From Egicoccus sp. AB-alg2 (GTDB taxonomy: Bacteria; Actinomycetota; Nitriliruptoria; Nitriliruptorales; Nitriliruptoraceae), in contig NZ_JBGUAX010000008.1 of assembly GCF_041821065.1 (NCBI RefSeq), forward strand, positions 124,001-188,000: DNA of 64,000 nucleotides, read 5' to 3'. Shown piece by piece: positions 32,127 to 63,425 of this stretch; position 1 is the first letter of the stretch; each line of letters begins with the position of its first letter. The position numbers and the translations under genes were made by a program. The notes beneath the pieces were generated by a model. It searched no databases and was not told the DNA's origin. It saw nothing but the letters and a program-made list of their open reading frames with translations.

Positions 32127-32141
32127 AACGGTACGACCATT
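32127..32141. promoter_or_regulatory. FadR-type operator upstream of tctC
   Basis: AACGGTACGACCATT has the core GGT-ACG-ACC in an inverted repeat, 79 bases upstream of the tctC start. Confidence 0.6.
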
Positions 32142-32251
32142 AGTCATCGGCTGTCAAGGGTGGATACGACATCGGTCGTTGGGCGCTGCAGCGGTTCGGA
32201 TGCCGGAGCGGGCGGAGCTGCGCCAGTTGACGGTGGTCCAAAATCGGCCAT

Positions 32252-32265
32252 ATGGTCTGACCGTT
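32252..32265. promoter_or_regulatory. FadR-type operator upstream of the ThDP-enzyme gene
   Basis: ATGGTCTGACCGTT has the core GGT-CTG-ACC and matches the reverse complement of the tctC site at most positions. Confidence 0.6.
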
Positions 32266-32329
32266 ACCTTTGCGTGCTCGAGCAACGCACGCGCCACCCA
32301 CGCCGCGGGCAGAGGGGACGGAGTCCACC

Positions 32330-34147: not shown

Positions 34148-34191
34148 CCCGCGGAAGCTGAAGATTCCCTTGACCCCTTGACCTATTGGAC

Positions 34192-34209
34192 CTAAGGTCG
34201 GACCCTTAG
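34192..34209. promoter_or_regulatory. FadR-type operator upstream of tctB
   Basis: CTAAGGTCGGACCCTTAG has outer arms CTAAG and CTTAG around GGT-CGG-ACC, 25 bases ahead of the tctB start. Confidence 0.6.
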
Positions 34210-34234
34210 CACCTCGGGAGAGAAGGCGTTCGCA

Positions 34235-34867: not shown

Positions 34868-34918
34868 TCGCGTCCATCCAGACCACAACCGCCGGCGTCG
34901 GCAGGGGAGTGACCGGTC

Positions 34919-36445
34919 GTGCTTGAAGGCCTTGCGCTGATCTCCGGGGACATCGTCCTCTACCTGTTCCTGGGGGTCGCCATCTCCACGTTCGTGGTGA
35001 TCATCCCCGGGTTGGGTGGCTCGTTCGCGCTGGCGATCCTGCTGCCCTTCATCTTCCGACTGGATGCCACGGCCGGCATCGCCTTCATGATGGCGATCAC
35101 GGCGGTCAACGGGACCGGGAACACGATCACCTCCATCCTCTTCGGGATCCCGGGTTCCGCCTCGGGTGTGGCCAGTACGTTCGACGGCTTTCCCATGACA
35201 CAGCGTGGGGAAGGCATCCGTGCGGTGTCGGCCGGACTGACCGCCTCGCTGATCGGCGGCCTGCTCGGCGCCTTCGCCCTTGCGCTGAGCCTGCCCGTCA
35301 TCCGCCCGATCGTGCTGGCGTTCCGACCCCCCGAGTTCTTCGCTCTCATCCTGCTCGCGCTCGTCTTCATGTCCTACGTGTCCGGCGCCGACAAGTTCAA
35401 GGCGTTGATCTCCGGCGGTCTCGGCGTCATGCTCTCGTTCGTGGGCATGGAGGGCAGCACGGCCACGCAGCGATGGACCTTCGGCAATCTCGCATTCTGG
35501 GAGGGCTTCAGCCTCATCCCGGTCCTGCTCGGGCTGTATGCCGTGACCGAGATGGTCGGCCTGATGCGAAGGGGCGGGGCCATCGCCAAGCGCCCGCCAC
35601 AGGAGGGTCCCTTCCGGCAGTTGCTGCAGGGCGCGAAGGACACCCTGAGTCACAAGATGGCCGTGCTGCAGAGTTCGGTGTCGGGGATGTGGGTCGGGCT
35701 AGCTCCGGGCATGGGCGATGCCGCAGCGCAGTTCATCGGCTACGGGCAGGTCGCACGGACCTCGAAGCGCGGCCACCTGTTCGGTACCGGTGAGGTGGAA
35801 GGCGTCATCGCCGCCGACGCGGCGACGAACTCGAAAGAGGGCGGCGCGCTGATCCCGACCCTGGCGTTCGGGATCCCCGGCAGCTCCGGCATGGCCATCA
35901 TCCTGGCGGGGTTCCTCGCCTTCGGCATCCAGCCGGGTCCCACGATGATCACGGACAACATCGACATCGTCTGGATGATCATCTGGATCCTGGTCTTCGC
36001 CAACATCATCGCCGCCGTGCTGTGTGCGTTCATCACCCCCGGGATGGCCAAGGTGACCGGTCTGCGGGCGTCACTGATCGTCGGACCGATCCTCGTCGCC
36101 AGCATGCTCGGCGCGTTCTCGGTCAGGAACAACTTCATCGACGTCTACGTCTTGCTCGGATTCGGGCTGCTCGGCACCTTGCTCAAGGAGTTCGGTTACT
36201 CGCGGCCGCTGCTCCTGATCGGCTTCGTGCTGGGCCCCCTGCTCGAGCACAACTACCTGCTGTCCATGCGGATCTGGGGGACCGGCTTCCTGACGCGGCC
36301 GATCGTGATGATCCTCGGCGCCGTCATGCTCCTGGTAGTCCTGTCGCCGCTGATCGGCAACCTCGTCCGGGGCCTGCGCAGGCCGAAGTCCGGGGACGAC
36401 TCGGGCGACCGGGCAGAGGCGACGGTTGCGGCGGACGGGGAGTGA
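34919..36445 (+). CDS. tctA: Tripartite tricarboxylate transporter large membrane subunit (TctA)
   Basis: A 508-residue protein of normal TctA length with about twelve transmembrane helices. Family signatures include VVIIPGLGGSFALAILLPF, TSILFGIPGSASGVASTFDG and the second-half repeat LAFGIPGSSGMAIIL. With TctB and TctC it should import an organic acid with cations. The preferred acid cannot be told from sequence; the surrounding genes point to an aromatic carboxylate. Confidence 0.93.
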   Translation: MLEGLALISGDIVLYLFLGVAISTFVVIIPGLGGSFALAILLPFIFRLDATAGIAFMMAITAVNGTGNTITSILFGIPGSASGVASTFDGFPMTQRGEGIRAVSAGLTASLIGGLLGAFALALSLPVIRPIVLAFRPPEFFALILLALVFMSYVSGADKFKALISGGLGVMLSFVGMEGSTATQRWTFGNLAFWEGFSLIPVLLGLYAVTEMVGLMRRGGAIAKRPPQEGPFRQLLQGAKDTLSHKMAVLQSSVSGMWVGLAPGMGDAAAQFIGYGQVARTSKRGHLFGTGEVEGVIAADAATNSKEGGALIPTLAFGIPGSSGMAIILAGFLAFGIQPGPTMITDNIDIVWMIIWILVFANIIAAVLCAFITPGMAKVTGLRASLIVGPILVASMLGAFSVRNNFIDVYVLLGFGLLGTLLKEFGYSRPLLLIGFVLGPLLEHNYLLSMRIWGTGFLTRPIVMILGAVMLLVVLSPLIGNLVRGLRRPKSGDDSGDRAEATVAADGE

Positions 36446-37458: not shown

Positions 37459-38751
37459 ATGCTGAAGCAAGAGATCAACGAGCTTCTCACGCAGACCGAC
37501 CGCGGCACGCCGATGGGGGAGCTGTTCCGTCAGTACTGGATCCCCGCGCTGCTCGCGGAGGAGCTCCCCGAAGACGACGCCCCGCCCGTGCGTGTCAAGC
37601 TGCTCGGTGAGCGTCTCGTCGCGTTCCGAGACAGCGAGGGTCGCTACGGGCTCATCGACGAGTTCTGTGCCCACCGCGGGGTGTCGTTGTGGTTCGGGCG
37701 CAACGAGGACGGTGGTCTGCGCTGCCCCTACCACGGGTGGAAATACGACGTCACCGGTCAGTGCACGGAGATCCCGTCCGAACCGGACGAGAAGGAGAGC
37801 CTGCTGTGCGCCAAGATCAAGCTGACGGGCTATCCGCTGGTCAAGGTCGGTGACGTCCTCTGGACGTACATGGGCGACCCCGCCTCGCAGCCGCCGTTGC
37901 CCGAGTGGGAGTTCGCGACGGTCCCGCCGGAGCAGACCTACACGTCCAAGCGCTGGCAGGAGTCCAACTGGCTCCAGGCGCTCGAAGGTGGCATCGATTC
38001 GAGCCACGTCTCCTGGCTGCACTCCGGCGGGCTGCAGTCCGACCCGCTCTTCAAGGGCGCCGCGGGCAACAAGTACAACCTCGCCGACCGCAAGCCGTTC
38101 TTCGAGGTCGTCGAGTCGGAGGGCGGGTTGTTCATCGGCGTACGCCGCAATGCCGAGGAGGGCCACTACTACTGGCGCATCACGCCGTGGATCATGCCGT
38201 CGTTCACGATGGTCCCGCCCCGCGGCGACCACCCCGTGCACGGGCACTTCTGGATCCCGATCGACGACGAGAACTGCTGGGTGTTCACCTTCGACTACCA
38301 CCCGGTTCGCGCCCTGACGGATGACGAGGTGCAGGCGATGAAGGACGGTCACGGCGTGCACAACGAGTACGTCCCGGGCACCTACCGTCCCCTGCAGAAC
38401 AAGGACAACGACTACCTGATGGACCGTGAGGCGCAGCGACGCGGCGAGACCTACTCCGGGGTCAAGGGAATCGCGATGCAGGACGCCTCGCTGCAGGAGA
38501 GCATGGGTCCGATCGTTGACCGCACGAAGGAGAAGCTGGTCTCCACCGACACCGGGATCATCATGGCGCGTCAGCGGCTGCGGAAGGCGGCCGAGGAGTT
38601 GCGTGACCAGGGTACGACCCCACCAGGTGTCGATCCCGAGCACCACAAGGTCCGCTCGGCAGCTGTGGTGCTGCCCAAGGACCAGCCGTTCCTCGAGGCC
38701 TCGCGTGATGCCCTGCGTGTGCGGCCCGGCGTCGCGCAGTCCTCGGTGTGA
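37459..38751 (+). CDS. Rieske non-heme iron oxygenase, phthalate 4,5-dioxygenase-like large subunit
   Basis: A 430-residue oxygenase. The Rieske cluster ligands are Cys70 and His72 (CAHRG) and Cys89 and His92 (CPYHGW). The mononuclear iron site is in the ESNWLQALEGG and IDSSHVSWLH segment, with His183 and His188 as ligands and Asp180 as the bridging acid. The length and this motif fit the phthalate 4,5-dioxygenase/OhpA-like branch that acts on aromatic carboxylates. No reductase is adjacent. A Rieske ferredoxin is encoded at 56409-56777. The start overlaps no other gene, and its stop overlaps the next start. Confidence 0.87.
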   Translation: MLKQEINELLTQTDRGTPMGELFRQYWIPALLAEELPEDDAPPVRVKLLGERLVAFRDSEGRYGLIDEFCAHRGVSLWFGRNEDGGLRCPYHGWKYDVTGQCTEIPSEPDEKESLLCAKIKLTGYPLVKVGDVLWTYMGDPASQPPLPEWEFATVPPEQTYTSKRWQESNWLQALEGGIDSSHVSWLHSGGLQSDPLFKGAAGNKYNLADRKPFFEVVESEGGLFIGVRRNAEEGHYYWRITPWIMPSFTMVPPRGDHPVHGHFWIPIDDENCWVFTFDYHPVRALTDDEVQAMKDGHGVHNEYVPGTYRPLQNKDNDYLMDREAQRRGETYSGVKGIAMQDASLQESMGPIVDRTKEKLVSTDTGIIMARQRLRKAAEELRDQGTTPPGVDPEHHKVRSAAVVLPKDQPFLEASRDALRVRPGVAQSSV

Positions 38752-40120: not shown

Positions 40121-40192
40121 CCCGGGCCCCGAGCACTGCCCGTGTCCACACGTGTGAGCGTGGACGCGGGGTCGAGCGAACAGGAGTGTGTC

Positions 40193-41068
40193 GTGCCCCA
40201 CGTGGAGATCGACGGCATCCGCACCGCCTACGAGGTCATCGGATCCGGCCCGCCGCTGCTGATGTTCTCGCCGGGTGGCTTCAACGCCGTGCGCAACAAC
40301 TGGTCCGAGCTGGGCGTGTACAAGCGTCTGTCGCTGCTGCCGGCCCTCTCCGAGCGCTTCCGGTGCATCGTCTTCGATCGGCGCGAGGCCGGCGAGTCCG
40401 GTGGCCGGGTCCAGCGGCTGGACTGGCGCGACCTCGTGGCGCAGGGCATCGGCCTGCTCGATCGGCTGGGCATCTCCAGGGCACACCTGATGGGCGGTTG
40501 CGTCGGCTGCTCGATCGTGGCGCGCGCGTCCGTCGACCACCCCAGCCGCGTGGCGGGCATGGTGTTGTACTCCCCGGCGGGCGGCCCGCGGTACCGCATG
40601 GGTCAGCACCGTCGTTTCGTCCAGCATCTGGCCTTCGCCGCCTTCGAAGGGCTCGACGGCGTGGTGGACCACGCTCGTGCGACGACGGAGAGCTTCTCGC
40701 AGGACCCTCGAGTCGGGCCGTGGGCCAGTGTGCTCCGCAGCGACGAGGAGTTCGCGGCCGCCTACCGGGGCCTCGACCCCGCCTGGTACGAGGCCGTGGT
40801 GACCGGCACGGCGCGGGTGATGTTCGATCGGGACACCGTTCCCGGTGTCGAACCCGAGGACCTCTTGTCGCTGGAAGACGTCCCCACGCTCATCGTCCCG
40901 GGTGACGATGCCTCGCACGCACCGTCCGCAGCGCAGTACCTGCGCGAATGCCTGCCGGCGGCGCGCTACTGGGACGCGCCCGTCGCGGAGCAGACGTCGA
41001 CCTCGGCGCCGCAGCAGATCCTGGCCGCGCTCGACGAGGCGCAGGCACGTCGGCCCGCCGACGCCTGA
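40193..41068 (+). CDS. Alpha/beta hydrolase with Cys nucleophile
   Basis: A 291-residue alpha/beta hydrolase. The oxyanion region is SPGGFNAVRNNW, and the nucleophile elbow is GGCVG with Cys103 where Ser is usual. Dienelactone hydrolases also use Cys. A His and Asp are available in the segment GDDASHAPSAAQYL. The GTG at 40193 has AGGAG six bases upstream. A longer frame to 40142 has no ribosome site. Likely a C-C or ester hydrolase for a ring-cleavage or lactone intermediate. Confidence 0.78.
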   Translation: MPHVEIDGIRTAYEVIGSGPPLLMFSPGGFNAVRNNWSELGVYKRLSLLPALSERFRCIVFDRREAGESGGRVQRLDWRDLVAQGIGLLDRLGISRAHLMGGCVGCSIVARASVDHPSRVAGMVLYSPAGGPRYRMGQHRRFVQHLAFAAFEGLDGVVDHARATTESFSQDPRVGPWASVLRSDEEFAAAYRGLDPAWYEAVVTGTARVMFDRDTVPGVEPEDLLSLEDVPTLIVPGDDASHAPSAAQYLRECLPAARYWDAPVAEQTSTSAPQQILAALDEAQARRPADA

Positions 41069-42568: not shown

Positions 42569-43723
42569 GTGACGTGGGAGGGCGAGATCACCGGGCTCGT
42601 GGAGGTGGTGCTGCGACCTGCCGCGGAGGCCTTCCTCGGGGTCACGGTCTTCGTCGCCACGATGATGGGGGTGTTCGCCGTCCTGCACTGGCGGCTGGGG
42701 CCGGCGTTGCCGCGTCTGCTCGCACGGCATCGCCGATACGGTCCGCTCCTGGGAGCACTCCTCGGCGTCGTGCCCGGGTGCGGTGGTGCGATCTTCGTGA
42801 TCCCGCTGTACGCGCGCCGACAGGTCTCATTCGGGACCGTGGTGGCGGCGCTCGTGGCGACGATGGGCGATTCGTCCTTCGTGCTGTTCGCGGCCGATCC
42901 CGGGCTCGCCCTTCGGCTGCACGGGCTGCTGTTCGTGACCGGCCTGGTCGTCGGGATCGTCGTCGATGCCTGCCGCTACGCCCCCGCGGCGCGGCCGGCC
43001 CCGGTCGCCGTCGTCGCCGCAGCGGCCGGCAGTCGGTCGTTGACGAGCCACGCCGACGAGTTCGAGTCGCCGGCGGCCGTCCTGTCCGGCCGCGACATGG
43101 GCGGCGAGCCTGCCTTCGGAAACGACGCCAGATGGAAAGCGGCCGTCTTCTGGCTGCTGGTCCTGCTCGGTCTGTCGGTGAGTGTGCCGGACCTGGTCGG
43201 CGGCGCGGATCCATTGGCGCCGACCGGCCCCCGTGGCGCCGCCGCAGCGGTCGGGCTGACCGGGACGGCCATGGCACTGTGGCTGGCGCGCGAGCGCCGC
43301 TGCGGGGGAGCGCCGGAGGCGTCCTCGTCGGGCGGCCTGCATGAGGTACTGGCCGCGACCGCCGTCGAGTCGGCGCGCGTGGGTATGTGGATCGCGTTCG
43401 TGCTCGTCGGTGTCGAGGTCGTGGGGTTGCTCGGAGCGCCGATCGTGCTGATTGCGACCCTGAGCGGCATGCTCGGTGTGGCTGCCGGTGCGCTTCTCGG
43501 CCTCGTGCCCGGGTGTGCCCCGCAGATCGTGCTCACGGGTATGTACGCCGGTGGTCTGCTGCCGTTTCCCACGCTCGTCGCCAACGCACTCAGCCAGGAC
43601 GGCGACGCACTGCTCCCCTTGCTGCTGTTGGACCCGCGGGCGGCGATCGTCGCCAACCTGGTCACGACCGTCCCGGGCCTGATCGTCGGCGGGGCGGTGC
43701 TCGTGTTGGCGATCGCACCGTGA
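42569..43723 (+). CDS. Putative 10-TM metal/anion exporter (ArsP_2/DUF2899 family)
   Basis: A 384-residue membrane protein with about ten hydrophobic helices in two halves. Each half has a conserved Pro-Gly-Cys: GVVPGCGGAIFVIPLYAR and GLVPGCAPQIVLTGMYAG. This pattern matches the ArsP_2 (putative heavy-metal exporter, also called putative manganese transporter) family. A substrate link to the aromatic island is unclear. It may export an organic anion or a metal. GTG start at 42569. Confidence 0.7.
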   Translation: MTWEGEITGLVEVVLRPAAEAFLGVTVFVATMMGVFAVLHWRLGPALPRLLARHRRYGPLLGALLGVVPGCGGAIFVIPLYARRQVSFGTVVAALVATMGDSSFVLFAADPGLALRLHGLLFVTGLVVGIVVDACRYAPAARPAPVAVVAAAAGSRSLTSHADEFESPAAVLSGRDMGGEPAFGNDARWKAAVFWLLVLLGLSVSVPDLVGGADPLAPTGPRGAAAAVGLTGTAMALWLARERRCGGAPEASSSGGLHEVLAATAVESARVGMWIAFVLVGVEVVGLLGAPIVLIATLSGMLGVAAGALLGLVPGCAPQIVLTGMYAGGLLPFPTLVANALSQDGDALLPLLLLDPRAAIVANLVTTVPGLIVGGAVLVLAIAP

Positions 43724-48390: not shown

Positions 48391-49974
48391 TCACCCGTCT
48401 CGACCGGCGTCGTGGTCCCCGTCCACGTTCGCGCCGTCGCTGAACAGCAGTGACTTGATGGTGACGGGCACGGTGTTCGAAGGGAACCGCAGCGTGCCGA
48501 GGTCGACGAAGTCGAAGTCCCACAACCGAACGCCGTCGATGCAGAGCACGTCGCTCTTCACCTCGAGCTCCTCACGGAGCAGGCGGCCCACCGAGCGGGC
48601 GACGTCCGCGTCCAGGACGAGCACGAGGGGCCGGTCCGCCTCGATGGCGGGGCGCATGGCATCGGCGACGCCCCGGGCAAAGGCATGGAGACGCGGATAA
48701 CTCGGCAGTCCGCTCCAGCCCAGCGCCAGTGCCACGTCGTCATGGGCGGGATCGAGGTCGAATGCTTCGAGGCGCTGTGCGACCGCGACCGCTACTGCTT
48801 GCGGATCGATGTCGTCGCCGAGGCTCAGGTCGGGTCGGACGACCTGCAGGTTCCGCCGGGGCAGCAGCCGGTCGGGATCGCTGATGTAGCCCGTACTCCC
48901 GCTCAACTGGATCGAATACTCGGAGGCACCGAGCGCCGTCGCCCGGATGCACTCACCCGGCGGCAGGACCGGGAAGGGGAACGATCCGTCCTCGATCCGC
49001 TCGCGCAGGCGTCCACCGAGCGCAGGACCGAGGTCGCCGAAGTCGCGGGACTCGCGGCCGTAGACGTACTCCCCGACGCCGCCCGAGAACATGACGCCGT
49101 CGATCGCCGTCCTGGCGGGCAATGGGCCTGCCAGGACGCGCAGACCGTGACCTTCGCGGTCGACGAGGAGGTCGACGAGCGCATCGGCCATCGCGGCCCC
49201 GACGCGGGAGCGCTGGTCCTCGGTCGCGGTGTCCCCCGGTTCCCAACTCAGCCCGGCGCGGCAGGCGTGCGCCCGGCCGGACGGCTCGAGGCGACGGATG
49301 ATCGCGTCGTCGTCGACGGCGACGAGCCGACCGCCGACGTCCACGGCGGCGGTCTCGAGCACCTGGCCGCGCTCGACCAACCCCAGCTTGGTGGTCCCGC
49401 CGCCGATGTCGATGTTGAGGATGCGGGAGGACTGCTCGTACGAGCGCTGGGCCGCGCCGGATCCGTACGCCGCCAGCATCGCCTCCATCTTGTGGCCAGC
49501 CGTTGCGCAGACCAGTTCGCCGCCCTGCTCGGACAGGACCTGCGTGATCCGCGCGGCGTTGCGCCGTCGCAGTGCCTCGCCCGTCAGGATGACGACGCCC
49601 GTGTCGATGCGTGCCGGGTCCGCCTTCGCGGCGGCATATGCGGCGTCGATCATGCGTCCCAGCGCTTCGGCATCGATCTGGTCGTCCGGGCGGTAGGGCG
49701 TCAACTCGACCGGTGACCGGTACCAGGTGTCGCGGCGCACGACGATGAATCGGCTGCTCAGCTCCTCGCCGATGCGGCGCAGCAGCAGGTTGGAGAAGAT
49801 GACCTGCGTCCCCGACGAGCCGACGTCGATGCCCACGCTGGTGAGCTCGACGTTGTCTTGCTGCCAGATCGGGTTGTCCTCGATCGGCAGGACGACCTCA
49901 TGATCGTGGACGTGGTCGTGGTCCGGCGTGACGTTCGTGTAGACGAAGGAAGGGCCGTCGGCTGCGCTGCTCAT
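48391..49974 (-). CDS. EutA-like ATPase 1 (reactivase family), paired with a bicupin
   Basis: A 527-residue actin-like ATPase. The phosphate-1 motif is SVGIDVGSSGTQVIF with Asp50, and the phosphate-2 motif is LNIDIGGGTTKLGL near 187-199. Further EutA signatures are the TGVVILTGEA and MFSGGVGEYV segments. EutA reactivates the B12-dependent ethanolamine ammonia-lyase. No EutB or EutC is in this window. Instead a bicupin gene (50059-51186) is 84 bases upstream on the same strand. An extra N-terminal 40 residues include DHDHVHDHE, a possible metal site absent from E. coli EutA. Confidence 0.78.
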   Translation of the reverse strand: MSSAADGPSFVYTNVTPDHDHVHDHEVVLPIEDNPIWQQDNVELTSVGIDVGSSGTQVIFSNLLLRRIGEELSSRFIVVRRDTWYRSPVELTPYRPDDQIDAEALGRMIDAAYAAAKADPARIDTGVVILTGEALRRRNAARITQVLSEQGGELVCATAGHKMEAMLAAYGSGAAQRSYEQSSRILNIDIGGGTTKLGLVERGQVLETAAVDVGGRLVAVDDDAIIRRLEPSGRAHACRAGLSWEPGDTATEDQRSRVGAAMADALVDLLVDREGHGLRVLAGPLPARTAIDGVMFSGGVGEYVYGRESRDFGDLGPALGGRLRERIEDGSFPFPVLPPGECIRATALGASEYSIQLSGSTGYISDPDRLLPRRNLQVVRPDLSLGDDIDPQAVAVAVAQRLEAFDLDPAHDDVALALGWSGLPSYPRLHAFARGVADAMRPAIEADRPLVLVLDADVARSVGRLLREELEVKSDVLCIDGVRLWDFDFVDLGTLRFPSNTVPVTIKSLLFSDGANVDGDHDAGRDG

Positions 49975-50014
49975 GCGTCGTCCTCACTCACGGCGCGTCG
50001 AGGTCCCGACGCGC

Positions 50015-50042
50015 GTGGCCCGGCCCCTGCGGGCCGGGCCAC
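50015..50042. terminator. GC-rich hairpin between cupin 1 and EutA-like 1
   Basis: GTGGCCCGGCCC pairs with GGGCCGGGCCAC (12 bp, four-base loop). No T-run follows on the minus strand, so it may attenuate rather than end transcription between the two genes. Confidence 0.5.
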
Positions 50043-50058
50043 CGTTCGGGCGGAGCCG

Positions 50059-51186
50059 TCAGGCGTCCGCGTCGGCCTTGGGCGGCAGATCCGCGAGCTC
50101 CGCCTCGTAGAACTGCTCCATCTGCGGTTCGAGACCGTGCTCGGCGAGGGCCTTGGCGAAGGTCTCGCGGACGAGCGCCGACTCGTCGGCGTAGTCGATC
50201 TGGTCGCCACCGATGCGCTGGCTGATCCACGCCTTCGGAACGCCCTGCGCGTTTCGCACCGACACGACCTCGTGCTTGAAGGCGAGGTAGCGGGCGGGTT
50301 CGGTCCCGGCGTTGAAGTGCTGGTGGAACCACATGTTCGGAGGCACGATGAGGCTGCCTGGCCCCCAGTCGTAGCGCTTCGGCTCTTCCCCCTCGGGCCA
50401 CATCAGGCTGTAACCCTGACCGGACAGGATGATCACGTGCGCGCCCGGCCCGTGCCGGTGGGCCTTCTTGTAGGTCGCGGTAGGGAACTGCGAGATGTGG
50501 CTGTTCATCGAACCCTTGGCCATCGAGAACCGGATGTGGCCACCGCCGGCGCCGCGTTCCTTGGCCTCGATCAGGGGCAGGGTCACCGTGTCGGCCACGA
50601 AGTTGGTGTCGAGGAGCAACCCCTTCTGCTCGCCCTTGGGCGCGAAGTAGTCGGGGTCGCCGTCGAAGCGGTTCAGGAAGTCGTGTGCGGTTCCGAACAC
50701 GAAGTCCACGTCGTCGTAGAGGTTCAGCACCGGTGGGAGGTTGGTCGAGGACACGAAACGGGCTGTCTTCTGGCCCGAGGCGTTGAAGTGCTGGTGATGG
50801 GTGTTCAGCGGGATCGCGAACATCGAGCCGGCCTGCCACTCGAAGGTGACCTCGGCGCCAGCGTCGTTCCAGACCTTGGTCGAACCCTGCCCGTCGAGGA
50901 TCAGGATCATTTCCTCGAACAACTGCCGCTGGGGGGCGAGGCTGGCCCCGGCCGGGATCTCGCACACGTAGCAGTCGTTGGAGGTCCGCGACGCCTCGTG
51001 GTTGATGTAGACGCCGCGCCCGCCGCGGCGTTCCCACGGCTTGAGTTCGACGGTGCGCAGGTCGGGGACGTAGTGGGCAGCGATGATGTCCAACCCCTCT
51101 GCGGCCACCCACCTGGTGTAAGGCGTCTCCTTCTCGGTGGCGAACTTCCTCGCCATCTTGTCGTCGACCAGTGCGTCCTTGGCCAT
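50059..51186 (-). CDS. Bicupin protein 1 (gentisate dioxygenase-like fold)
   Basis: A 375-residue protein with two cupin domains. N-terminal domain: LFEEMILILDGQGSTKVW and AIPLNTHHQHFN. C-terminal domain: KKAHRHGPGAHVIILSGQG and PPNMWFHQHFN, which has three His in a metal-site arrangement. The fold and length match gentisate 1,2-dioxygenase-like and related bicupins, but I do not know the reaction. ATG follows GAGGAGC. It is divergent from the FMN-oxidase/cupin 2 operon and paired with EutA-like 1. Confidence 0.75.
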   Translation of the reverse strand: MAKDALVDDKMARKFATEKETPYTRWVAAEGLDIIAAHYVPDLRTVELKPWERRGGRGVYINHEASRTSNDCYVCEIPAGASLAPQRQLFEEMILILDGQGSTKVWNDAGAEVTFEWQAGSMFAIPLNTHHQHFNASGQKTARFVSSTNLPPVLNLYDDVDFVFGTAHDFLNRFDGDPDYFAPKGEQKGLLLDTNFVADTVTLPLIEAKERGAGGGHIRFSMAKGSMNSHISQFPTATYKKAHRHGPGAHVIILSGQGYSLMWPEGEEPKRYDWGPGSLIVPPNMWFHQHFNAGTEPARYLAFKHEVVSVRNAQGVPKAWISQRIGGDQIDYADESALVRETFAKALAEHGLEPQMEQFYEAELADLPPKADADA

Positions 51187-51294
51187 CGGGTGCTCCTCGG
51201 GGGTCACTGCTCGAGGTTCGTCTCGAACGATCGTCGATGGAGGCGCGCCGCCGGGTGCGGCGCGGATTCGGTCCCAGGATACCAGGGAAAGGCT

Positions 51295-51310
51295 AATAGG
51301 TCTAACCATT
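51295..51310. promoter_or_regulatory. FadR-type operator near cupin 1
   Basis: AATAGGTCTAACCATT contains GGT-CTA-ACC in a nearly perfect inverted repeat in the divergent region. Confidence 0.6.
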
Positions 51311-51362
51311 CACGTTCCATGGTCACGCATTGACGCTTCGCGCGCTGCTGCGGCATACTGGC

Positions 51363-51380
51363 CTAAGTTCATACCTTTAG
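51363..51380. promoter_or_regulatory. FadR-type operator near the FMN-oxidase gene
   Basis: CTAAGTTCATACCTTTAG has the same outer arms as the tctB site (CTAAG ... TTTAG) around GTT-CAT-ACC, 54 bases ahead of the oxidase start. Confidence 0.5.
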
Positions 51381-51433
51381 CCCAAGCGTGACGGTTCGCT
51401 CATGCCAGGGTGGGGTCGAGCGTGGGAGCGCGC

Positions 51434-52507
51434 ATGGACCTGCCAGCCGGGGCACCGACTGCCGACGAGTTGTGGGATGCCGGCCTGGGGCGGCTGTCCG
51501 CCGAGGTACGCGACCACCTCCTCGGTGGCGCGAGCGACGGCTGCGGCCCCGCGCGCAACCGGGCCGCTCTCGAGCAGGTCCTGTTCGTCCCCAAGGTCGT
51601 CGGTGGGGCCCGACCGCCGGACCTCGGCACGACGTTCCTGGGGCGTCGGATCTCCGCACCCTTCGGCACGGCGCCGATCGGGTCGGTGGATCTCGCGACG
51701 CCGCAGGCTGCCCGGGCCATCGTCGAGGTCCTCGCACGACGGGGGCTGGCGGGCTTCGTGGGACTGCTCGCGCTGGAGGACCTGCGCACGATGGCGCCGC
51801 TGCCCGAGTCGGCGGTCATGCTGCAGCTGTATCTGCGTGGCGACGACGGCTGGTTGCATGAGACCGTCAAGCTGTCCGAGGACAAGGGTTTTCACGGGTT
51901 CTGCGTCACGGTCGACAGCCGGGAGAAGGCCTACCGTCCCCGCGACCGGCGCAACCGCTACGTCAAGCGCGACAACCTCGGCAAGCCACCGAACCTGCCG
52001 GACGACCCCCTCGCCTACGACCACCAGCGTGCAGTCGACTGGCAGCGCTTGGAGCGGCTGCGCGCGATGACCGACCGTCCGCTCGTGTTGAAGGGGCTGC
52101 TGCACACCGCCGAGGCCCGTCGGGCCGTGGAGGTCGGCTTCGACGGCGTCTATGTGTCGAACCACGGCGGTCGCAACGTCGGGCACACGATCGCTACGGC
52201 CGAGGCACTCGCAGAGATCGCCCAGGTCGTCCCCGAGGAGTGCGCCGTGGTGGTCGACGGCGGGTTCCGCGACGCCGAGGACGTGCTCAAGGCCCGCTGC
52301 CTGGGGGCGGATCTCGTCACCTTCGGGCGGTCGCACTTCCTGGCGCTCGCCGCGGGCGGGGCGGCCGGACTCGAAGCGCTCTTCGAAGCGCTCGACGAGC
52401 AGATGCGCCTGACCATGCGACTGTTGGGCGTGGAGTCGCTCGCGGAACTGACACCCGATCTCGTGCGCATCGGCCCGCCGTGGCAGACCGTCCACGCCCA
52501 CCACTGA
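51434..52507 (+). CDS. FMN-dependent 2-hydroxy-acid oxidase/dehydrogenase (LldD/glycolate oxidase family)
   Basis: A 357-residue (beta/alpha)8 FMN enzyme. FMN-binding: APFGTAPIG near the start of the barrel. Catalytic His in YVSNHGGRNVGH, with a Lys in LVLKGLLHTAEA and Asp in VVDGGFRDAEDV. The family oxidises L-2-hydroxy acids to 2-oxo acids. The usual DHGGRQLD tail reads NVGH here, so substrate choice may differ. The ATG at 51434 follows GGGAG; the frame is open to 51410. It leads the cupin 2 / EutA-like 2 operon. Confidence 0.85.
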   Translation: MDLPAGAPTADELWDAGLGRLSAEVRDHLLGGASDGCGPARNRAALEQVLFVPKVVGGARPPDLGTTFLGRRISAPFGTAPIGSVDLATPQAARAIVEVLARRGLAGFVGLLALEDLRTMAPLPESAVMLQLYLRGDDGWLHETVKLSEDKGFHGFCVTVDSREKAYRPRDRRNRYVKRDNLGKPPNLPDDPLAYDHQRAVDWQRLERLRAMTDRPLVLKGLLHTAEARRAVEVGFDGVYVSNHGGRNVGHTIATAEALAEIAQVVPEECAVVVDGGFRDAEDVLKARCLGADLVTFGRSHFLALAAGGAAGLEALFEALDEQMRLTMRLLGVESLAELTPDLVRIGPPWQTVHAHH

Positions 52508-52562
52508 GCACCGAGCAGTCGCGGACCGGACACGTTCGGCCGTCCGCGGCGAGGAGGAACAC

Positions 52563-53777
52563 GTGACGAACTACGCCACGGCAGCCAAGGGCACGTTCGT
52601 GCCCCCGACCGGCGAGGAGTTCGCCGGGCCGCGCAAGTTCAAGAGCCCCAAGCAACCCTACGACATCTTCATGGAGTCGGAGGGCATCCCGATCCACCGG
52701 GACATCGGCTACCGCGACGTCCGCGAGTTGGAGTTGGCCGACTGGGCCCGCACCGGTGGACGTGGGGCATACATCCAGCTGCTGGGCACCGAAGAGCTGT
52801 GGGGTATGTACGTGCTCGAGGTCCCCGGCGGCGCCGCCCTGGAGATCGAGCAGCACATCTACGAGAAGATCGTCTACGTCGTCGAGGGCGCCGGTACGAC
52901 CGAGGTCTGGCGCAGCACCGATGACCTCGGCAAGGAACCGCAGCGTTTCGAGTGGCACGACGGGTCGCTGTTCGCCATCCCGCTCAACGCGCGCCATCGC
53001 TTCGTCAACGGCAGCGACAAGCGCGCGCTCATGGTGGTCGGCACGACGGCGCCGCCGGTCTTCAACCTCTTCGACAACACGGCGTTCGTCTTCGACAACC
53101 CCTATCCGTTCGAGGAGCGCTACAACGCCGAATCGGGGTTCTTCGACTACCACGACGACCTGGTGCCCGACCCGGTCCGCGGTCGGGCGATGCAGGTGAC
53201 CAGCCTCATCCCCGACCTGGTCAACCTGGAGCTGCCGTTGGACAACCAGCGGGGGCCGGGCATGCGGCGCATCCAGCCCTGGATGGCCAACGCCCGCTTC
53301 TACATGAAGATCCTCGAGTACCAGATTGGGCGCTACTCGCCGGCTCACTACCACCCGCCCAGCGCCGTCCTGCTGTGTGTCAAGGGTGGCGGCTACACCT
53401 ACACCTGGCCCCGCGAGATCGGACTTCGCCCCTGGGCGGACGGCAAGGCCGACCAGGTGAAGCGCGTCGACTACGTCCCCGGTGGGCTCGTGGCGGCGGC
53501 ACCCGGTGGCGGTGACTGGGTGCACCAGCACTTCGCCGTCAGCCGTGAGCCGCTGCGGGTGCTGGCGATGAACGGGCCACCGAGCGCGCGCATCGGCGGA
53601 CTGTTCGCTCCGCCGGGCAAGGAACTGACCAGCTCGAACCTCGGCATGTCCGAGGGCGGTCGGAGTATCGAGTACTGGGCCGAGGACCCGCACATCCGTG
53701 CGGAGTTCGAGTCCGAGCTCGCCAAGGTGGGGCTGGAGTCCACGATGCCGCCCGAGCTGTACACGCGGCCCCAGTGA
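52563..53777 (+). CDS. Bicupin protein 2 (gentisate dioxygenase-like fold)
   Basis: A 404-residue bicupin. N-terminal domain: EQHIYEKIVYVVEGAGTTEV and AIPLNARHRFVNG. C-terminal domain: SPAHYHPPSAVLLCVKGGGY and DWVHQHFAV, with three His in a likely metal site. It is related to cupin 1 in layout but longer, with an extra C-terminal region. It overlaps the next start by GTGA, so it is translationally coupled to EutA-like 2. Ring cleavage or another metal-dependent oxidation is inferred, not shown. Confidence 0.75.
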   Translation: MTNYATAAKGTFVPPTGEEFAGPRKFKSPKQPYDIFMESEGIPIHRDIGYRDVRELELADWARTGGRGAYIQLLGTEELWGMYVLEVPGGAALEIEQHIYEKIVYVVEGAGTTEVWRSTDDLGKEPQRFEWHDGSLFAIPLNARHRFVNGSDKRALMVVGTTAPPVFNLFDNTAFVFDNPYPFEERYNAESGFFDYHDDLVPDPVRGRAMQVTSLIPDLVNLELPLDNQRGPGMRRIQPWMANARFYMKILEYQIGRYSPAHYHPPSAVLLCVKGGGYTYTWPREIGLRPWADGKADQVKRVDYVPGGLVAAAPGGGDWVHQHFAVSREPLRVLAMNGPPSARIGGLFAPPGKELTSSNLGMSEGGRSIEYWAEDPHIRAEFESELAKVGLESTMPPELYTRPQ

Positions 53778-55264
53778 CCGCCCCCGACGCGTGGCACGAA
53801 CCGCCGCCCGGCAGCCACCTGCCGGGTCTCGACGGCGATCAGCTGGTACTGGTCAGCTCCGGGATCGACATCGGCTCGTCGACGATGCACCTCGCCGTGT
53901 CACGCCTCGTCGTCGAGCGCGACGGGGGCGGGTTCGAGATCGTTGGACGAGAGCTCGCCTACGAATCCCCGGTCGTGCTGACGCCCTACGTCGACGGCGC
54001 GCAGATAGACACCGAACAGGTCGAGCGAGTCTTCCGTTCCTTCTATGCCGAGGCCGGACTCGAGCCGGTGCACGTCGACACCGGTGTCGTGATCCTCACC
54101 GGCGTGGCCCTCGAACGGACCAATGCGCGCGCGCTCGGGGAGGTGGTCGCTTCGTGGGGCGGGCACTTCCTGTCGGTAGCTGCCGGGGACCGGCTCGAGG
54201 GGGTCCTGGCGGCGCACGGATCGGGCGCGGTCGAGCGGTCGCGGTCGGTCGGCACCGTGGCCAACGTCGACATCGGCGGGGGCACCGTCAAGATCTCCTG
54301 GTGTCGAGACGGCCGCGTGCTGGACGTCCAGGCCTTCGACATCGGTACCCGCCTGATCGCCTGGCAGCCCGAGTCCCGGGCGGTGCAGCGCCTGGAACCG
54401 ACCGGGGCACAGCTGGTCGCCGCGTTGGACCTGCCGCCCGTTGCGCTCGGCGAGGGATTCCTGCCGGGGCACGAGCACGCCCTGACGAAAGGGGTCGCCC
54501 AGCACCTCGTCGCATTCCTGGCCGGCGAGCAGACCCCCCTGATGATGGCCACCGCGCGTGGCTCCGCCCAGCCACCCCGCGTGGCGCCGGACGAGGTCGT
54601 CTTCTCGGGAGGGTTTGCCGAATACCTGCTGGCGCGTGCCGACGGAGACTTCAGCGACCTGGGGAAGGCCATGGCCGCGGCGCTCGGGGACGTCGTCGGT
54701 CAGCGCCAGGACGTGACGGTCGCGCCCGTGGGCATCCGCGCGACCGCCATCGGAGCGGGCCAGTTCACGGTGCAGGTCAGTGGCATCACGATCCACCGCA
54801 CCGCCGGGTTCCCCCTGCCGCTGCGCAACCTGCCGGTCGTCCGACTCTCGCCGGTCGGTGCGGCCGACCTGGCCGAGGAACTGCGCGCGCGGCTGCGTCT
54901 GCTCGAACTGCACGACCAGTCGGTGGCGATCGCGTTGCCCTGGTCGGGCCCAGCGAGCTACGAGCGGCTGCGCTCGTGCGCAGCCGCACTGGCCGACGGC
55001 GTCGGTCCGTTGCTCGAACGCGGGCTGCCGGTGGCGGTGGTGTGCGACGGCGACGTGGCACGGCTCCTGGGACAGCACCTCACCGCGACCAGCGGGGACG
55101 CGGCGTCGTTCCTGGTCGTCGACGGCATCGAGGTCGAGGAACTGGACTTCCTCGACCTGGGGGAACCCGTCGGGGCGTACGGCGCCATCCCGGTGACCGT
55201 GAAATCACTGGCGTTTCGCGACGAGGTCGGACAACGCCCCCGAGCGTGGCACCACACCGGCTGA
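53774..55264 (+). CDS. EutA-like ATPase 2, coupled to bicupin 2
   Basis: A 496-residue EutA-family protein. The phosphate-1 motif is SSGIDIGSSTMHLAV (Asp32), the phosphate-2 motif is ANVDIGGGTVKISW, and VVFSGGFAEYLL and VGIRATAIGAGQFTVQVSG are later family segments. Its GTG start overlaps the bicupin stop. It is a paralog of the protein at 48391-49974 but lacks the His-rich leader. With no ammonia-lyase gene nearby, its client is likely the neighbouring cupin enzyme or another pathway enzyme. Confidence 0.78.
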   Translation: MTAPDAWHEPPPGSHLPGLDGDQLVLVSSGIDIGSSTMHLAVSRLVVERDGGGFEIVGRELAYESPVVLTPYVDGAQIDTEQVERVFRSFYAEAGLEPVHVDTGVVILTGVALERTNARALGEVVASWGGHFLSVAAGDRLEGVLAAHGSGAVERSRSVGTVANVDIGGGTVKISWCRDGRVLDVQAFDIGTRLIAWQPESRAVQRLEPTGAQLVAALDLPPVALGEGFLPGHEHALTKGVAQHLVAFLAGEQTPLMMATARGSAQPPRVAPDEVVFSGGFAEYLLARADGDFSDLGKAMAAALGDVVGQRQDVTVAPVGIRATAIGAGQFTVQVSGITIHRTAGFPLPLRNLPVVRLSPVGAADLAEELRARLRLLELHDQSVAIALPWSGPASYERLRSCAAALADGVGPLLERGLPVAVVCDGDVARLLGQHLTATSGDAASFLVVDGIEVEELDFLDLGEPVGAYGAIPVTVKSLAFRDEVGQRPRAWHHTG

Positions 55265-55323
55265 ACAACCCACCATCACACCAACACACGACGTTGCCGC
55301 GGGCAACGGTGGAAGGAGAACCG

Positions 55324-59495: not shown

Positions 59496-60617
59496 ATGGC
59501 GGACGAGGTACTCGCGGCGGTGCGCGTGGCGCCGTCCACGACCGAGCTGCGGACCTTTCCCTGGCCTCGTGTGCCCGACGACGGTGCGTTGCTGAAGGTG
59601 GAGGTCGCCGGGATCTGCGGCACCGATGTCAAGATGTACGCCAAACCGCCCTTCGACGACCCCGTCATCATGGGGCACGAGAACATCGGCGTCCTGGTGG
59701 AGGCGGGGCCGAAGTTCCTCGAGCGCCACGGTGTCGCACTCGGCGACCGGCTCTTCGTCGAGCACTACGTCGCCTGCTACCGCTGCCACTGGTGTCACCG
59801 CGGCGACTACCGGCACTGCGAGCTGACGGACTGGCGCACGAACCCGCACGCGCGGCGATACGGCTACACCTCGGCCGACAACGAGCACCACCTGTGGGGC
59901 GGCTTCTCGCAGTACATGTACCTGCCCTGGAACGCCGTGATCCACGCCGTGCCCGACGGCGTGTCCGCCGAGCTCGCGGGACTGGTCACGCCGCTGTCCA
60001 ACGGCATCGAGTGGGCGTTGTTCGAGGGCGGCGTCGGCTACGACAGCACGGTGCTGATCCAGGGCCCCGGCCAGCAGGGGCTGTCCCAGGTCGTCGCCTG
60101 CAAGCAGGCGGGTGCCTCGAACATCGTCGTCAGTGGCACCTCGCGAGACGGGGCGCGATTGCAGCTGGCGCTGGAACTCGGCGCCGACCACGTCGTCGAC
60201 GTGCAGCAGCAGGACCCCTACGCCGCCGTCATGGACGCGACCGCAGGCGTCGGCGTCGACGTGGTCCTCGACTGCACCGCCGGGGCGGGCACCGCGCCTC
60301 TCCTGCTCGGCATCGACGTCCTGAAGCGCCGCGGCGGCACCGTGGTCGCGCAGGGCGAGTTGGCCGCCTTCCCGGACTTCCCGCTCAAGAAGCTCACCGA
60401 GAAGGCTGCCGCCCTCAAGAGCGCCCGCGGACACCGGTACGAGGCGTGCGAACTCGCGCTCAGGCAGCTCGCCTCGCACCGGTTTCCGCTCGAGCGGCTG
60501 GCGACGCACACGTTCGACCTCGAACAGACCGACCGTGCCATCCGCACGGTCGGTGGCGAGACCGACGAGGACGTCATCCACGTGTCGCTGCTGCCGTGGG
60601 GGAGCGGTGCGAACTGA
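59496..60617 (+). CDS. Zinc-dependent alcohol dehydrogenase (MDR family)
   Basis: A 373-residue MDR protein. Catalytic-zinc residues are Cys in GICGTDVKMY and His/Glu in MGHENIGV. A structural-zinc-like cluster is in CYRCHWCHRGDYRHC. The nucleotide loop is GPGQQGLSQVVACKQAG. It should oxidise an alcohol or diol with NAD(P). It leads the LigK/LigJ/decarboxylase cluster. Confidence 0.85.
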   Translation: MADEVLAAVRVAPSTTELRTFPWPRVPDDGALLKVEVAGICGTDVKMYAKPPFDDPVIMGHENIGVLVEAGPKFLERHGVALGDRLFVEHYVACYRCHWCHRGDYRHCELTDWRTNPHARRYGYTSADNEHHLWGGFSQYMYLPWNAVIHAVPDGVSAELAGLVTPLSNGIEWALFEGGVGYDSTVLIQGPGQQGLSQVVACKQAGASNIVVSGTSRDGARLQLALELGADHVVDVQQQDPYAAVMDATAGVGVDVVLDCTAGAGTAPLLLGIDVLKRRGGTVVAQGELAAFPDFPLKKLTEKAAALKSARGHRYEACELALRQLASHRFPLERLATHTFDLEQTDRAIRTVGGETDEDVIHVSLLPWGSGAN

Positions 60618-60677: not shown

Positions 60678-61352
60678 ATGGGCATCGTGAAACGGAAGGT
60701 CGACCGCGCACACATCGAGCTCGTCGACGGCCTGGCCGCCTGTGGCGTCGCCACCGTGCACGAGGCGCAGGGCCGCACCGGCCTGCTGGCGTCCCGGATC
60801 GGACCCGTCTACGCGGGCGCCCGCGTCGCCGGTACGGCGGTGACGGTGTCGGCGCCACCGGCCGACAACTGGATGCTGCACGTCGCGGTCGAGCAGTGCC
60901 AGCCCGGAGACCTGCTCGTGGTCAGTCCGACGGCCCCCTCCGATGCGGGCTACTTCGGAGAACTGCTCGCCACGGCGCTGCAGGCACGCGACGTCCGCGG
61001 CCTCGTCATCGACGCGGGCTGCCGTGACGTCTCCGAGTTGCAGGTCATGGGCTTTCCCGTCTGGTCGAAATGCGTGTCCGCGTTCGGCACGGTCAAGGAG
61101 ACGCTGGGCGACGTGAATCTGCCGATCGTCTGCGCCGGGCAGTACATCGAGCCCGGCGACGTCGTCGTGGCGGACGACGACGGCGTGGTGGTCGTGCCGC
61201 GGGCACGTGCGGCCGACGTCCTGGCGGCCTCCCGCGCGCGTGAGGAGAAGGAGGCGCGCTCGCGGGCCCGCTACGCGGCCGGAGAGCTGAGTCTCGACGT
61301 CGGCGCGATGCGCGAACGGCTCGAGCGCAAGGGCCTCCGTTACGTCGACTGA
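60678..61352 (+). CDS. RraA-family aldolase, LigK/HMG aldolase type
   Basis: A 224-residue protein of the RraA-like fold. The class II aldolase site is GELLATAL and DAGCRD, carrying the catalytic Arg and metal-binding Asp. The family includes 4-carboxy-4-hydroxy-2-oxoadipate aldolase (LigK) and oxaloacetate decarboxylase. It starts 21 bases before the LigJ-type gene. That pairing supports the LigK assignment and final cleavage to pyruvate and oxaloacetate. Confidence 0.75.
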
Positions 61353-61372: not shown

Positions 61373-62386
61373 ATGATCATCGACTGCCACGGCCACTACA
61401 CGACGGCCCCGCCGCAGCTGCAGCGCTTCCGAGACGACCAACTGGCACGGCTCCGCGACCCGACGCGACCACCCGCGACGCTGGGCGCCATCTCCGACGG
61501 GGAGATCCGCGAGAGCATCGAGCAGCACCAGTTGCGCGTCCTGCGTGAACGCGGCGGCGACGTCATGGTGTTCTCCCCGAAGGCGTCCGGCATGGAGCAC
61601 CACGTGCCGGACAGCGACACGGCGGCGGCCTGGGCGCGTGCCTCGAACGACCTCGTGCACCGGGTGACCGAGCTGTTCCCGGAGACGTTCGCGGGTGTCT
61701 GCCAGCTGCCGCAGACGCCGGACGGCGCCCTCGGCCCGGTGATCGCGGAACTACGCCGTTGTGTCGAGGATCTCGGATTCGTGGGTTGCAACCTCAACCC
61801 GGATCCGTCGGGTGGCCACTGGACCTCCTCCCCGCTGACCGACGAGTCCTGGTTCCCGTTGTACGAGACCATGATCGAGTTGGACGTACCGGCGATGATC
61901 CACGTCTCGTCCTCGTGCAACCCGAACTTCCACACCCTCGGCGCGCACTACCTCAACGCCGACACCTCGGTGTTCATGCAGTTCGTGCAGGGGGATCTGT
62001 TCGCGCGGTTCCCCGAGTTACGCTTCGTCATCCCGCACGGCGGCGGCGCCGTGCCGTACCACTGGGGTCGCTACCAGGGGCTCGCGACCCGACTGGGCCG
62101 TCCCCCGATCGAACAGCACGTGATGAACAACGTGTTCTTCGACACCGCCGTCTACCACCAGCCCGGCATCGAGTTGCTCACCCGTGTCGTCGGCATCGAC
62201 AACCTGTTGTTCGCGTCCGAGATGCTGGGCGCCGTCCGCGGCGACAATCCCGACACCGGCTCGGGATGGGACGACACGCTTCGTTACCTCGAAGCTGTGG
62301 ACCTGACGCCGGACGAGCGCAAGCGCATCTACGAGGCCAACGCGCTGCGGGTCTACCCGCGACTCGCCGCGCGACTCACCGGATGA
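61373..62386 (+). CDS. ligJ: 4-oxalomesaconate hydratase-like protein (LigJ family)
   Basis: A 337-residue amidohydrolase-fold protein. Metal-site motif IIDCHGHYTT at the start, His in MIHVSSS, His in VIPHGGGAVPYHWGR, and Glu in LFASEMLG (where most members have Asp). Segments CVEDLGFVGCNLNPDP and PHGGGA match LigJ from memory. It hydrates 4-oxalomesaconate in the protocatechuate 4,5-cleavage pathway. The neighbouring aldolase agrees. Confidence 0.75.
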   Translation: MIIDCHGHYTTAPPQLQRFRDDQLARLRDPTRPPATLGAISDGEIRESIEQHQLRVLRERGGDVMVFSPKASGMEHHVPDSDTAAAWARASNDLVHRVTELFPETFAGVCQLPQTPDGALGPVIAELRRCVEDLGFVGCNLNPDPSGGHWTSSPLTDESWFPLYETMIELDVPAMIHVSSSCNPNFHTLGAHYLNADTSVFMQFVQGDLFARFPELRFVIPHGGGAVPYHWGRYQGLATRLGRPPIEQHVMNNVFFDTAVYHQPGIELLTRVVGIDNLLFASEMLGAVRGDNPDTGSGWDDTLRYLEAVDLTPDERKRIYEANALRVYPRLAARLTG

Positions 62387-62432: not shown

Positions 62433-63425
62433 ATGCCACCACTACCGCTGACGTTCGCCTGCGGCGATTACGACCGCACCCGGGCACTCGAGGAAGGCAC
62501 CGTCCGGGCCAGCGGGATCTCGCTCAACTATCTGCGGCTGCCGGTCGAGGAGACCTTCTTCCGCATGATGCGCCATCAGGAGTTCGATGTCGCGGAGATG
62601 TCGTTCTCGTCCTACGTCGTCTCGCTGCAGCGGGACGACCCACCCTTCGTCGCGTTGCCGGTGTACACCTCACGGATGTTCCGGCACGGCGGGATCTTCG
62701 TGCGCTCCGATGCCGGGATCGAGCAACCCGAGGACCTCGTCGGCAAGACGGTGGGGTCGCCGGAGTTCCAGCTCAGCGCTTGCGTCTGGATCCGCGGCAT
62801 CCTCGCCGAGCACCACGGCCTGCCGGTCGACTCCGTGCGCTACCGGACCGGTGGGCAGGAGAAGCCCGGCCGCATCGAGAAGGCAGCGCTGGATCTCCCG
62901 CCCGAGATCGAGGTGGAACCGATCGCGCCCGGCCAGACGTTGTCGCGGATGCTGGTCGAGGGCGAGATCGATGCCATCTATTCACCGCGGATCCCGTCCC
63001 CGTTCACGGAGGGTGACCCCCGCGTCCGCAGGTTGTTCCCGGACGTGATCGCGGCCGAGACCAAGTACTTCGGCAAGACCGGCATCTTCCCGATCATGCA
63101 CGTCGTCGCCATCCGTCGGGAGGTCTACGAGACCAACCGGTGGATCGCGCAGTCGCTGATGAAGGCGTTCTCCGAGGCGAAGGAACGGGCATACCGCCGG
63201 TTCGACGACTCGTCCGCGCTGCCGTTCACCTTGCCGTGGATGACCCTGCAGTTCGAGGAGGCGCGACGGCGACTCGGTGACGACTTCTGGTCGTACGGGC
63301 TCCAGGACAACTGGGACGACCTCGACGCCTTCCTGCGCTACCACCATGAGCAGGGGTTGTCCAAGCGCCGCGTGACGCCCGAGGAACTGTTCGCGCCCGA
63401 GGCGTTGGAGTCGTTCGTGATCTAG
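62433..63425 (+). CDS. 4,5-dihydroxyphthalate decarboxylase (Pht5 type)
   Basis: A 330-residue protein. The opening TFACGDYDRTRALEEGTV and RLPVEETFFRMMRH, then FDVAEMSFSSYVVS, are the hallmark of the Pht5/PhtD decarboxylase group (periplasmic-binding-protein fold without signal peptide). It would convert 4,5-dihydroxyphthalate to protocatechuate, linking a phthalate-type oxygenase to the LigJ/LigK enzymes. No metal is needed in the family. Related proteins act on other aromatic diacids, so the substrate is inferred. Confidence 0.8.
   Translation: MPPLPLTFACGDYDRTRALEEGTVRASGISLNYLRLPVEETFFRMMRHQEFDVAEMSFSSYVVSLQRDDPPFVALPVYTSRMFRHGGIFVRSDAGIEQPEDLVGKTVGSPEFQLSACVWIRGILAEHHGLPVDSVRYRTGGQEKPGRIEKAALDLPPEIEVEPIAPGQTLSRMLVEGEIDAIYSPRIPSPFTEGDPRVRRLFPDVIAAETKYFGKTGIFPIMHVVAIRREVYETNRWIAQSLMKAFSEAKERAYRRFDDSSALPFTLPWMTLQFEEARRRLGDDFWSYGLQDNWDDLDAFLRYHHEQGLSKRRVTPEELFAPEALESFVI

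Follow-up and report, generated by a model that had tools for sequence, protein, structure and literature searches.

The window analysed here is a stretch of 64,000 nucleotides from Egicoccus sp. AB-alg2 (contig NZ_JBGUAX010000008.1, positions 124,001 to 188,000), and it carries two modules, each composed of a gene for a double-cupin protein (bicupin) and a gene for an ATPase similar to EutA, the reactivase of the adenosylcobalamin-dependent ethanolamine ammonia-lyase (EutBC). A preliminary description of the window had named these four genes, with a 4-base overlap in the second module, and their positions and the overlap were confirmed. Its layout of two bicupin/EutA pairs also stands, except that a gene for a flavin mononucleotide (FMN)-dependent dehydrogenase between the modules had been overlooked. 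The genes and motifs of this region are listed below.

48391 to 49974, minus strand: EutA-like ATPase 1 (EutA1 type), 527 amino acids; PF06277, E=1.9e-110, profile positions 2-474 of 475
49897 to 49923, minus strand: His/Asp-rich N-terminal segment DHDHVHDHE of EutA1, residues 18-26
50059 to 51186, minus strand: bicupin 1 (cup1 type), partner of EutA1; Cupin_2 matched twice
51410 to 52507, plus strand: FMN-dependent alpha-hydroxy-acid dehydrogenase, between the modules; PF01070, E=2.7e-82
52563 to 53777, plus strand: bicupin 2 (cup2 type), partner of EutA2; one Cupin_2 domain by Pfam
53346 to 53354, plus strand: metal-ligand motif 1 of bicupin 2, C-terminal cupin, H262-x-H264; invariant in 70/70 bicupins
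53523 to 53534, plus strand: metal-ligand motif 2 of bicupin 2, C-terminal cupin, H321-Q-H323-F; invariant in 70/70 bicupins
53774 to 55264, plus strand: EutA-like ATPase 2 (EutA2 type), 496 amino acids; PF06277, E=5.4e-89, profile positions 3-474 of 475

The start of bicupin 1 was set at 51186 according to its orthologues, which begin with MAKDA or MVKDA; the longest open reading frame extends to 51309. The end of bicupin 1 and the start of EutA1 are separated by a gap of 84 bp, and the start of EutA2 overlaps the stop of bicupin 2 at 53774-53777. The genome (98.5% complete) contains exactly two EutA genes and just two bicupins of this family, all of them in the window, and EutB, which had been reported as missing near the modules, is absent from the whole genome. 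The FMN dehydrogenase is not a conserved neighbour, as a homologue was present in 1/54 linked loci, 0/45 replicate loci and 2/55 control loci.

The pairing of EutA-like and cupin genes is real and widespread. A bicupin search of 84,980 genomes gave 80 loci, in which EutA lies after or near the bicupin in the cup1 clade and in one cup2 subfamily, and another, large cup2 subfamily is without a local EutA. Orthologues of bicupin 1 (71-88% identical) were found beside EutA1-type ATPases in Actinomycetota and Alphaproteobacteria, and on Sinorhizobium and Phyllobacterium plasmids a bicupin with 50% identity to bicupin 2 directly precedes EutA. Bicupin 1 and EutA1 are side by side in two other genomes of the genus (88% identity for the cupin and 63% for EutA), and other members of the bacterial family carry classical EutA-EutB-EutC clusters.

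A total of 385 sampled alphaproteobacterial genomes were searched with the EutA profile and, separately, with the bicupin profile. EutA was detected in 11 genomes (29 genes in total) and a bicupin in 12, among which 11 are the EutA genomes (Fisher 2e-20); in the twelfth (G658), whose bicupin lies at a contig edge, a truncated EutA is found 55 bp away. The partners of the 29 EutAs are bicupins (23), UbiD decarboxylases (4) or neither (2), and none of the 29 has EutB within 5 kb. Each of 28 genomes selected for having bicupin loci that lack a local EutA was found to possess EutA at another place (E <= 1e-20), against a background of 11/385 in the class; the resulting p of 7e-35 overstates independence, since these genomes were picked by having a bicupin and are related metagenome-assembled genomes (MAGs), not 28 independent events. 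Chance adjacency or selfish clustering is ruled out by the genome-wide co-occurrence, which includes genomes whose bicupins have no local EutA. A second set comprised 44 further loci with 50 EutAs, of which 28 are partnered by a bicupin, 14 by tandem single cupins, 1 by UbiD and 7 by nothing recognised, and EutB was next to none of the 50. Among 396 Actinomycetota genomes, EutA was found in ten; five genes are bicupin-linked (two of them those of the window) and the other five inspected are all beside EutB. EutB is missing from 18 of 21 checked genomes with a cupin-linked EutA. The preliminary description had suggested looking in many genomes for the pairing without eutBC: it recurs, so that this locus is not unique, and eutBC does not accompany most of these EutAs.

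The numbers of bicupin and EutA genes per genome are unequal (15:2, 16:4, 14:4, 12:4 and 6:1). Five alphaproteobacterial MAGs of 2.4-4.1 Mb (G545, G817, G818, G829 and G837) contain 13-16 bicupins each, an expansion of paralogues. In four loci (L181:6340-10174, L170, L179 and L167) the EutA-like gene is directly downstream of a UbiD-family decarboxylase, which raises the question of whether such decarboxylases form a second class of clients. Two EutA-like genes of different type are divergently arranged about 450 bp apart in L210 and L211, with cup1 genes 3 kb off in L210.

In the EutA tree, the EutB-linked EutAs form one clade and all cupin- or UbiD-linked EutAs the other, with a Shimodaira-Hasegawa-like approximate likelihood ratio test (SH-aLRT) support of 100. 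EutA1 groups with the cup1-linked EutAs and EutA2 with those linked to cup2, and both groups include members from Actinomycetota and Proteobacteria, although the exact place of EutA2 is unsure because of its long branch. Distances between paired EutAs and bicupins are correlated, with coefficients of 0.70 overall and 0.65, 0.84 and 0.91 within pair types (permutation p<=0.0005). Both modules are found in one cluster in L073, G813 (L190/L193) and L213, and L213 has the same layout as the window, in that its cup1/EutA1 and cup2/EutA2 modules are on opposite strands. The two modules of the window are only 33% (bicupins) and 37% (EutAs) identical to each other; this identity and the recurrence of both pair types across phyla rule out a local or recent duplication, and the word 'duplicated' used for the arrangement was misleading. 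The modules are two ancient and distinct pair types that travel together. The proposal that the ATPase has been recruited to a cupin metalloenzyme, and not to a B12-dependent ammonia-lyase, is strongly supported by adjacency in Actinomycetota, Alphaproteobacteria and Betaproteobacteria, near-perfect co-occurrence, mirrored trees and the usual absence of EutB.

Both window ATPases match the Pfam EutA family PF06277 over its full length, with 370 (EutA1) and 300 (EutA2) bits against a cut-off of 27. They do not reach the cut-offs of the NCBI EutA equivalog models (598 to 952 bits), scoring 301.9 (EutA1) and 251.4 bits (EutA2). The phosphate motifs of the actin-like fold, which had already been recognised in both proteins, are kept (phosphate-1 and phosphate-2), as is the adenosine motif. 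Among the motifs of the ASKHA (actin/Hsp70/sugar kinase) ATPases, G48/D50/G52 and D189-G191-G193-T194 are invariant and S297-G298-G299 is nearly invariant. EutA1 adopts the RNase-H-like fold of ASKHA proteins, with the best VIA-align match to exopolyphosphatase (PPX; Z 16.5, 4.3 A over 264 residues) and further fold matches to FtsA and MreB. Pfam assigned EutA and related actin-like families only, and the cobW P-loop domain (PF02492) was not found in the EutAs. A His/Asp-rich tail marks the EutA1 type: in the first set at least 3 His per 12 residues were present in 10/11 EutA1-clade, 1/33 EutA2-clade and 1/9 EutB-linked members, and the tail was seen again in the new genomes of the replicate. 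Other EutA1-type proteins show such a stretch as HEHGPDADHDHD and KHEHDGYSDHEH, and two more EutA clades bear a shorter version.

Bicupin 2 has a double-cupin fold in a confident AlphaFold2 model (predicted local distance difference test, pLDDT, 90). Its best VIA-align match is salicylate 1,2-dioxygenase (2phd; Z 20.6, 4.7 A, 267 residues), followed by gentisate 1,2-dioxygenase (Z 20.5), and identity to both dioxygenases is 10-13%. In profile searches for solved homologues, gentisate dioxygenase, auxin-binding protein, MreB and PPX/GppA were matched, and no more than weakly. The C-terminal cupin holds the invariant HxH and HQH ligands and lacks the usual glutamate ligand in 70/70 bicupins, and the N-terminal site is degenerate (E/Q-x-H/Q). 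In known gentisate/salicylate-type dioxygenases, it is the N-terminal cupin that binds Fe(II), through three His. The active site of the bicupins therefore likely lies, judged from these residues, in the opposite domain. The second ligand motif of the bicupins forms part of an HQHFN stretch, with which the two single-cupin proteins encoded before EutA in other loci end as well. In L221:6429-9422, L230:6490-9410 and a dozen loci like them, two consecutive single-cupin genes, both encoding HxH and HQHFN, are followed by a His-rich EutA1-type ATPase; these tandem single cupins are the two-domain design of the bicupin split over two genes.

The modules lie among genes for the breakdown of aromatic acids, which are listed below together with an exporter gene from the same cluster.

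37459 to 38751, plus strand: Rieske ring-hydroxylating oxygenase (LigXa type); PF00355, PF19301
39263 to 40120, plus strand: ketopantoate-hydroxymethyltransferase-like protein, 61-62% identical to L073/L190 cluster genes
40142 to 41068, plus strand: alpha/beta hydrolase, 51-56% identical to L073/L190 cluster genes
42569 to 43723, plus strand: ArsP_2-type putative 10TM heavy-metal exporter; PF11449, E=1.8e-66; NF037962 arsenic efflux
59496 to 60617, plus strand: Zn-type alcohol dehydrogenase
60678 to 61352, plus strand: LigK
61373 to 62386, plus strand: LigJ
62433 to 63425, plus strand: 4,5-dihydroxyphthalate-decarboxylase homologue

The Rieske oxygenase is 70-79% identical to oxygenases in the proteobacterial bicupin-EutA clusters L190, L033, L213 and L073. 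The last four genes, for which the matches are to TIGR02798 (337.8 bits, over the cut-off), PDB 2gwg (E=5e-140) and PDB 9jp7 (E=2.5e-88), were all found again in bicupin-EutA clusters. The window encodes, close to the modules, two dihydroxyphthalate-decarboxylase homologues and a tripartite transporter. A Rieske oxygenase was found near EutA-linked bicupins in 15/51 loci vs 0/39 control loci (bicupin loci without EutA) and a dihydroxyphthalate-decarboxylase homologue in 16/51 vs 0/39, and this context was also found in the replicate loci. The cluster of the window is an aromatic-acid degradation island. In G813, PobA, LigK and a protocatechuate-type extradiol dioxygenase are encoded next to the modules. 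The pathway thus probably runs through protocatechuate.

EutA exchanges the damaged cofactor on EutBC (PMC9426561). This precedent favours a reactivase or a metal-maturation factor, and it appears moderately probable to us that the EutA-like proteins serve in this way, driven by ATP and without B12, for cupin enzymes with a three-histidine site. The bicupins would act as mononuclear metalloenzymes in an aromatic-acid pathway, alongside the Rieske oxygenase, the 4,5-dihydroxyphthalate-decarboxylase-like enzyme and LigJ/LigK. By analogy with EutA, the ATP-bound form would engage an inactive cupin (apo, metal-oxidised or inhibitor-bound), ATP hydrolysis would open the cupin so that the dead metal or ligand is released, and the cupin would then be recharged. 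The tail of the EutA1 type may act as a metal buffer that holds the incoming metal, and one ATPase could serve several bicupins. The His/Asp-rich tail and the excess of bicupins would fit the loading, unloading, repair or inhibitor removal by the ATPase that had been suggested in the preliminary description. More tentatively, we propose that EutA-family actin-like ATPases insert or replace the active-site metal of cupins with ATP and independently of B12, the EutA1 type by means of its own metal-binding tail. Several observations weigh against maturation or reactivation of cupins: the EutA2 type has no His-rich tail, so that not every member of the family can depend on one; the neighbour of some EutAs is a UbiD decarboxylase, and others have no recognised partner; the 28 genomes mentioned above are related; and, as regards metal supply, NicO or CobW was found in 0/44 further loci and a NicO-family gene is absent from the genome of the window.

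The tight coupling of the genes, their overlapping reading frames and their co-divergence would suit a two-subunit enzyme equally well. In such an enzyme the EutA-like protein would be a catalytic partner in a fixed complex with the cupin, an ASKHA kinase or ATPase that activates the substrate as in acetone/acetophenone carboxylases, and the closeness of the EutA1 fold to phosphotransferase-type ASKHA proteins agrees with this. However, bicupins outnumber EutAs by up to 15:2, the genes of a large bicupin subfamily are not next to a EutA gene, and tandem single cupins and a UbiD decarboxylase as partners suit a helper better than a reaction-specific subunit. The bicupin excess and the several kinds of partner make a fixed catalytic subunit less likely, and we consider it unlikely. 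A cupin that merely binds a ligand or metal, the pair being a regulatory or storage switch, is consistent with the many cupins that are not enzymes and with the degenerate N-terminal site. This is quite improbable given the invariant C-terminal HxH and HQH ligands, the ring-cleaving dioxygenases as closest fold, the constant place in catabolic clusters and the many paralogues per genome.

The identity of the metal bears on a further explanation, in which a HypB/UreE-like metal buffer is fused to an actin-like ATPase that inserts Ni or Co into cupins that are Ni/Co enzymes. The His/Asp-rich tails of the EutA1 type are in line with this, and NicO/NixA, NikR or CobW genes were found near eight first-sample loci and in 0 control loci. 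NicO/NixA-type Ni/Co permeases were found near EutA in six (L033, with NikR, L121, L190, L170, L179 and L181) and CobW GTPase genes in L190 and L178. The permease is directly 3' of EutA in L170, L179 and L181, three of the four UbiD-linked loci. However, three of the six NicO cases represent one UbiD-linked clade, His-rich tails bind Zn, Fe and Cu too, and the lack of NicO and CobW in the further loci, and of NicO in the genome itself, also counts here. Cobalamin and NiCo riboswitches were not found at Rfam gathering scores in the window and 16 loci, where only two tRNAs were detected. A Ni or Co insertase is therefore rather unlikely, and nickel or cobalt as the metal was kept as a rival only. 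The family name and the presence of EutB somewhere in 3/21 genomes with a cupin-linked EutA would suggest that the EutAs serve EutBC or another B12 enzyme in trans and stand beside cupins incidentally. This is barely credible and largely refuted by the lack of EutB in the genome of the window and in 18/21 others, the separate clade, the lack of any EutB in the 5 kb around cupin-linked EutAs and the absence of cobalamin riboswitches from the 17 sources. A search for diol dehydratase (PF02286) as another B12 client gave no match, and the control search likewise matched nowhere.

Set against known systems, the window proteins share with EutA full-length homology and the ATPase motifs, and would be expected to act alike, each using ATP to assist one family of enzymes; they differ in their clade, in having a cupin and not EutBC as partner, and in the His/Asp-rich tail of the EutA1 type. 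The system probably works like EutA yet is not the ethanolamine EutA. The bicupins resemble gentisate and salicylate 1,2-dioxygenases in double-cupin fold and aromatic-acid catabolic context, but differ in sequence and in having the intact metal site in the C-terminal cupin; to our knowledge, the known bicupin dioxygenases of this type need no ATPase. XylT-type ferredoxins reactivate oxidised catechol 2,3-dioxygenase and may be likened to the EutA-like proteins as helpers that restore an inactivated ring-cleavage metalloenzyme, but XylT, being a redox ferredoxin, differs from an actin-like ATPase. HypB/UreE/UreG and CobW metallochaperones likewise join a His-rich metal buffer to a nucleotide hydrolase, and CobW genes lie near two of the loci, but they are P-loop GTPases whereas the window proteins are ASKHA ATPases. 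EutQ, the cupin of the ethanolamine microcompartment, is also encoded near eutA; it has a single Cupin_3 domain and occurs in eut operons with EutBC, whereas for the bicupins the match is to Cupin_2, with no hit to a EutQ-like model. The statement that no system of this type had been described agrees with the open-access literature, in which no paper connecting the ethanolamine EutA with cupins was found, the matches concerning ectoine EutA or EutQ.

The cupins form one of the largest superfamilies of metalloenzymes, and the general view is that they are self-sufficient in metal uptake. If the reactivase or maturation role is correct, an obligatory ATPase partner would mean that some cupins need active maintenance as B12 enzymes do, and that a large cupin group relies on its own metal insertase or reactivase, driven by ATP. 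The recognition of a new client by actin-like reactivases would become testable. As the pairs occur in phthalate/protocatechuate-type clusters, they could be of importance when such pathways are expressed heterologously, and the system could help to assign chemistry to hundreds of uncharacterised bicupins. NCBI annotates the cupin-linked EutAs of Phyllobacterium as ethanolamine ammonia-lyase reactivating factors, and in many bacteria proteins bearing this name have probably been misannotated and are part of another system.

Some further genes of the window and of related loci were inspected. The amidohydrolase at 55315 was rejected as a member of the system, as it is not enriched near bicupin-EutA loci, and PADLOC gave no match for a role in defence. 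The ArsP_2-type exporter gene is located inside the catabolic cluster and adjoins a dihydroxyphthalate-decarboxylase homologue; it was rejected as a recurrent metal gene, having no homologue in the other loci. In L194 of Phyllobacterium zundukense, a bicupin annotated as 'hypothetical protein' (14796-16025) directly precedes an annotated EutA, and the second gene downstream encodes a YjbE-family putative metal transport protein. The window contains, at 30924-36445, genes for a tripartite tricarboxylate transporter and for a thiamine-diphosphate enzyme, and genes of these kinds are also found near this second bicupin-EutA pair of P. zundukense.

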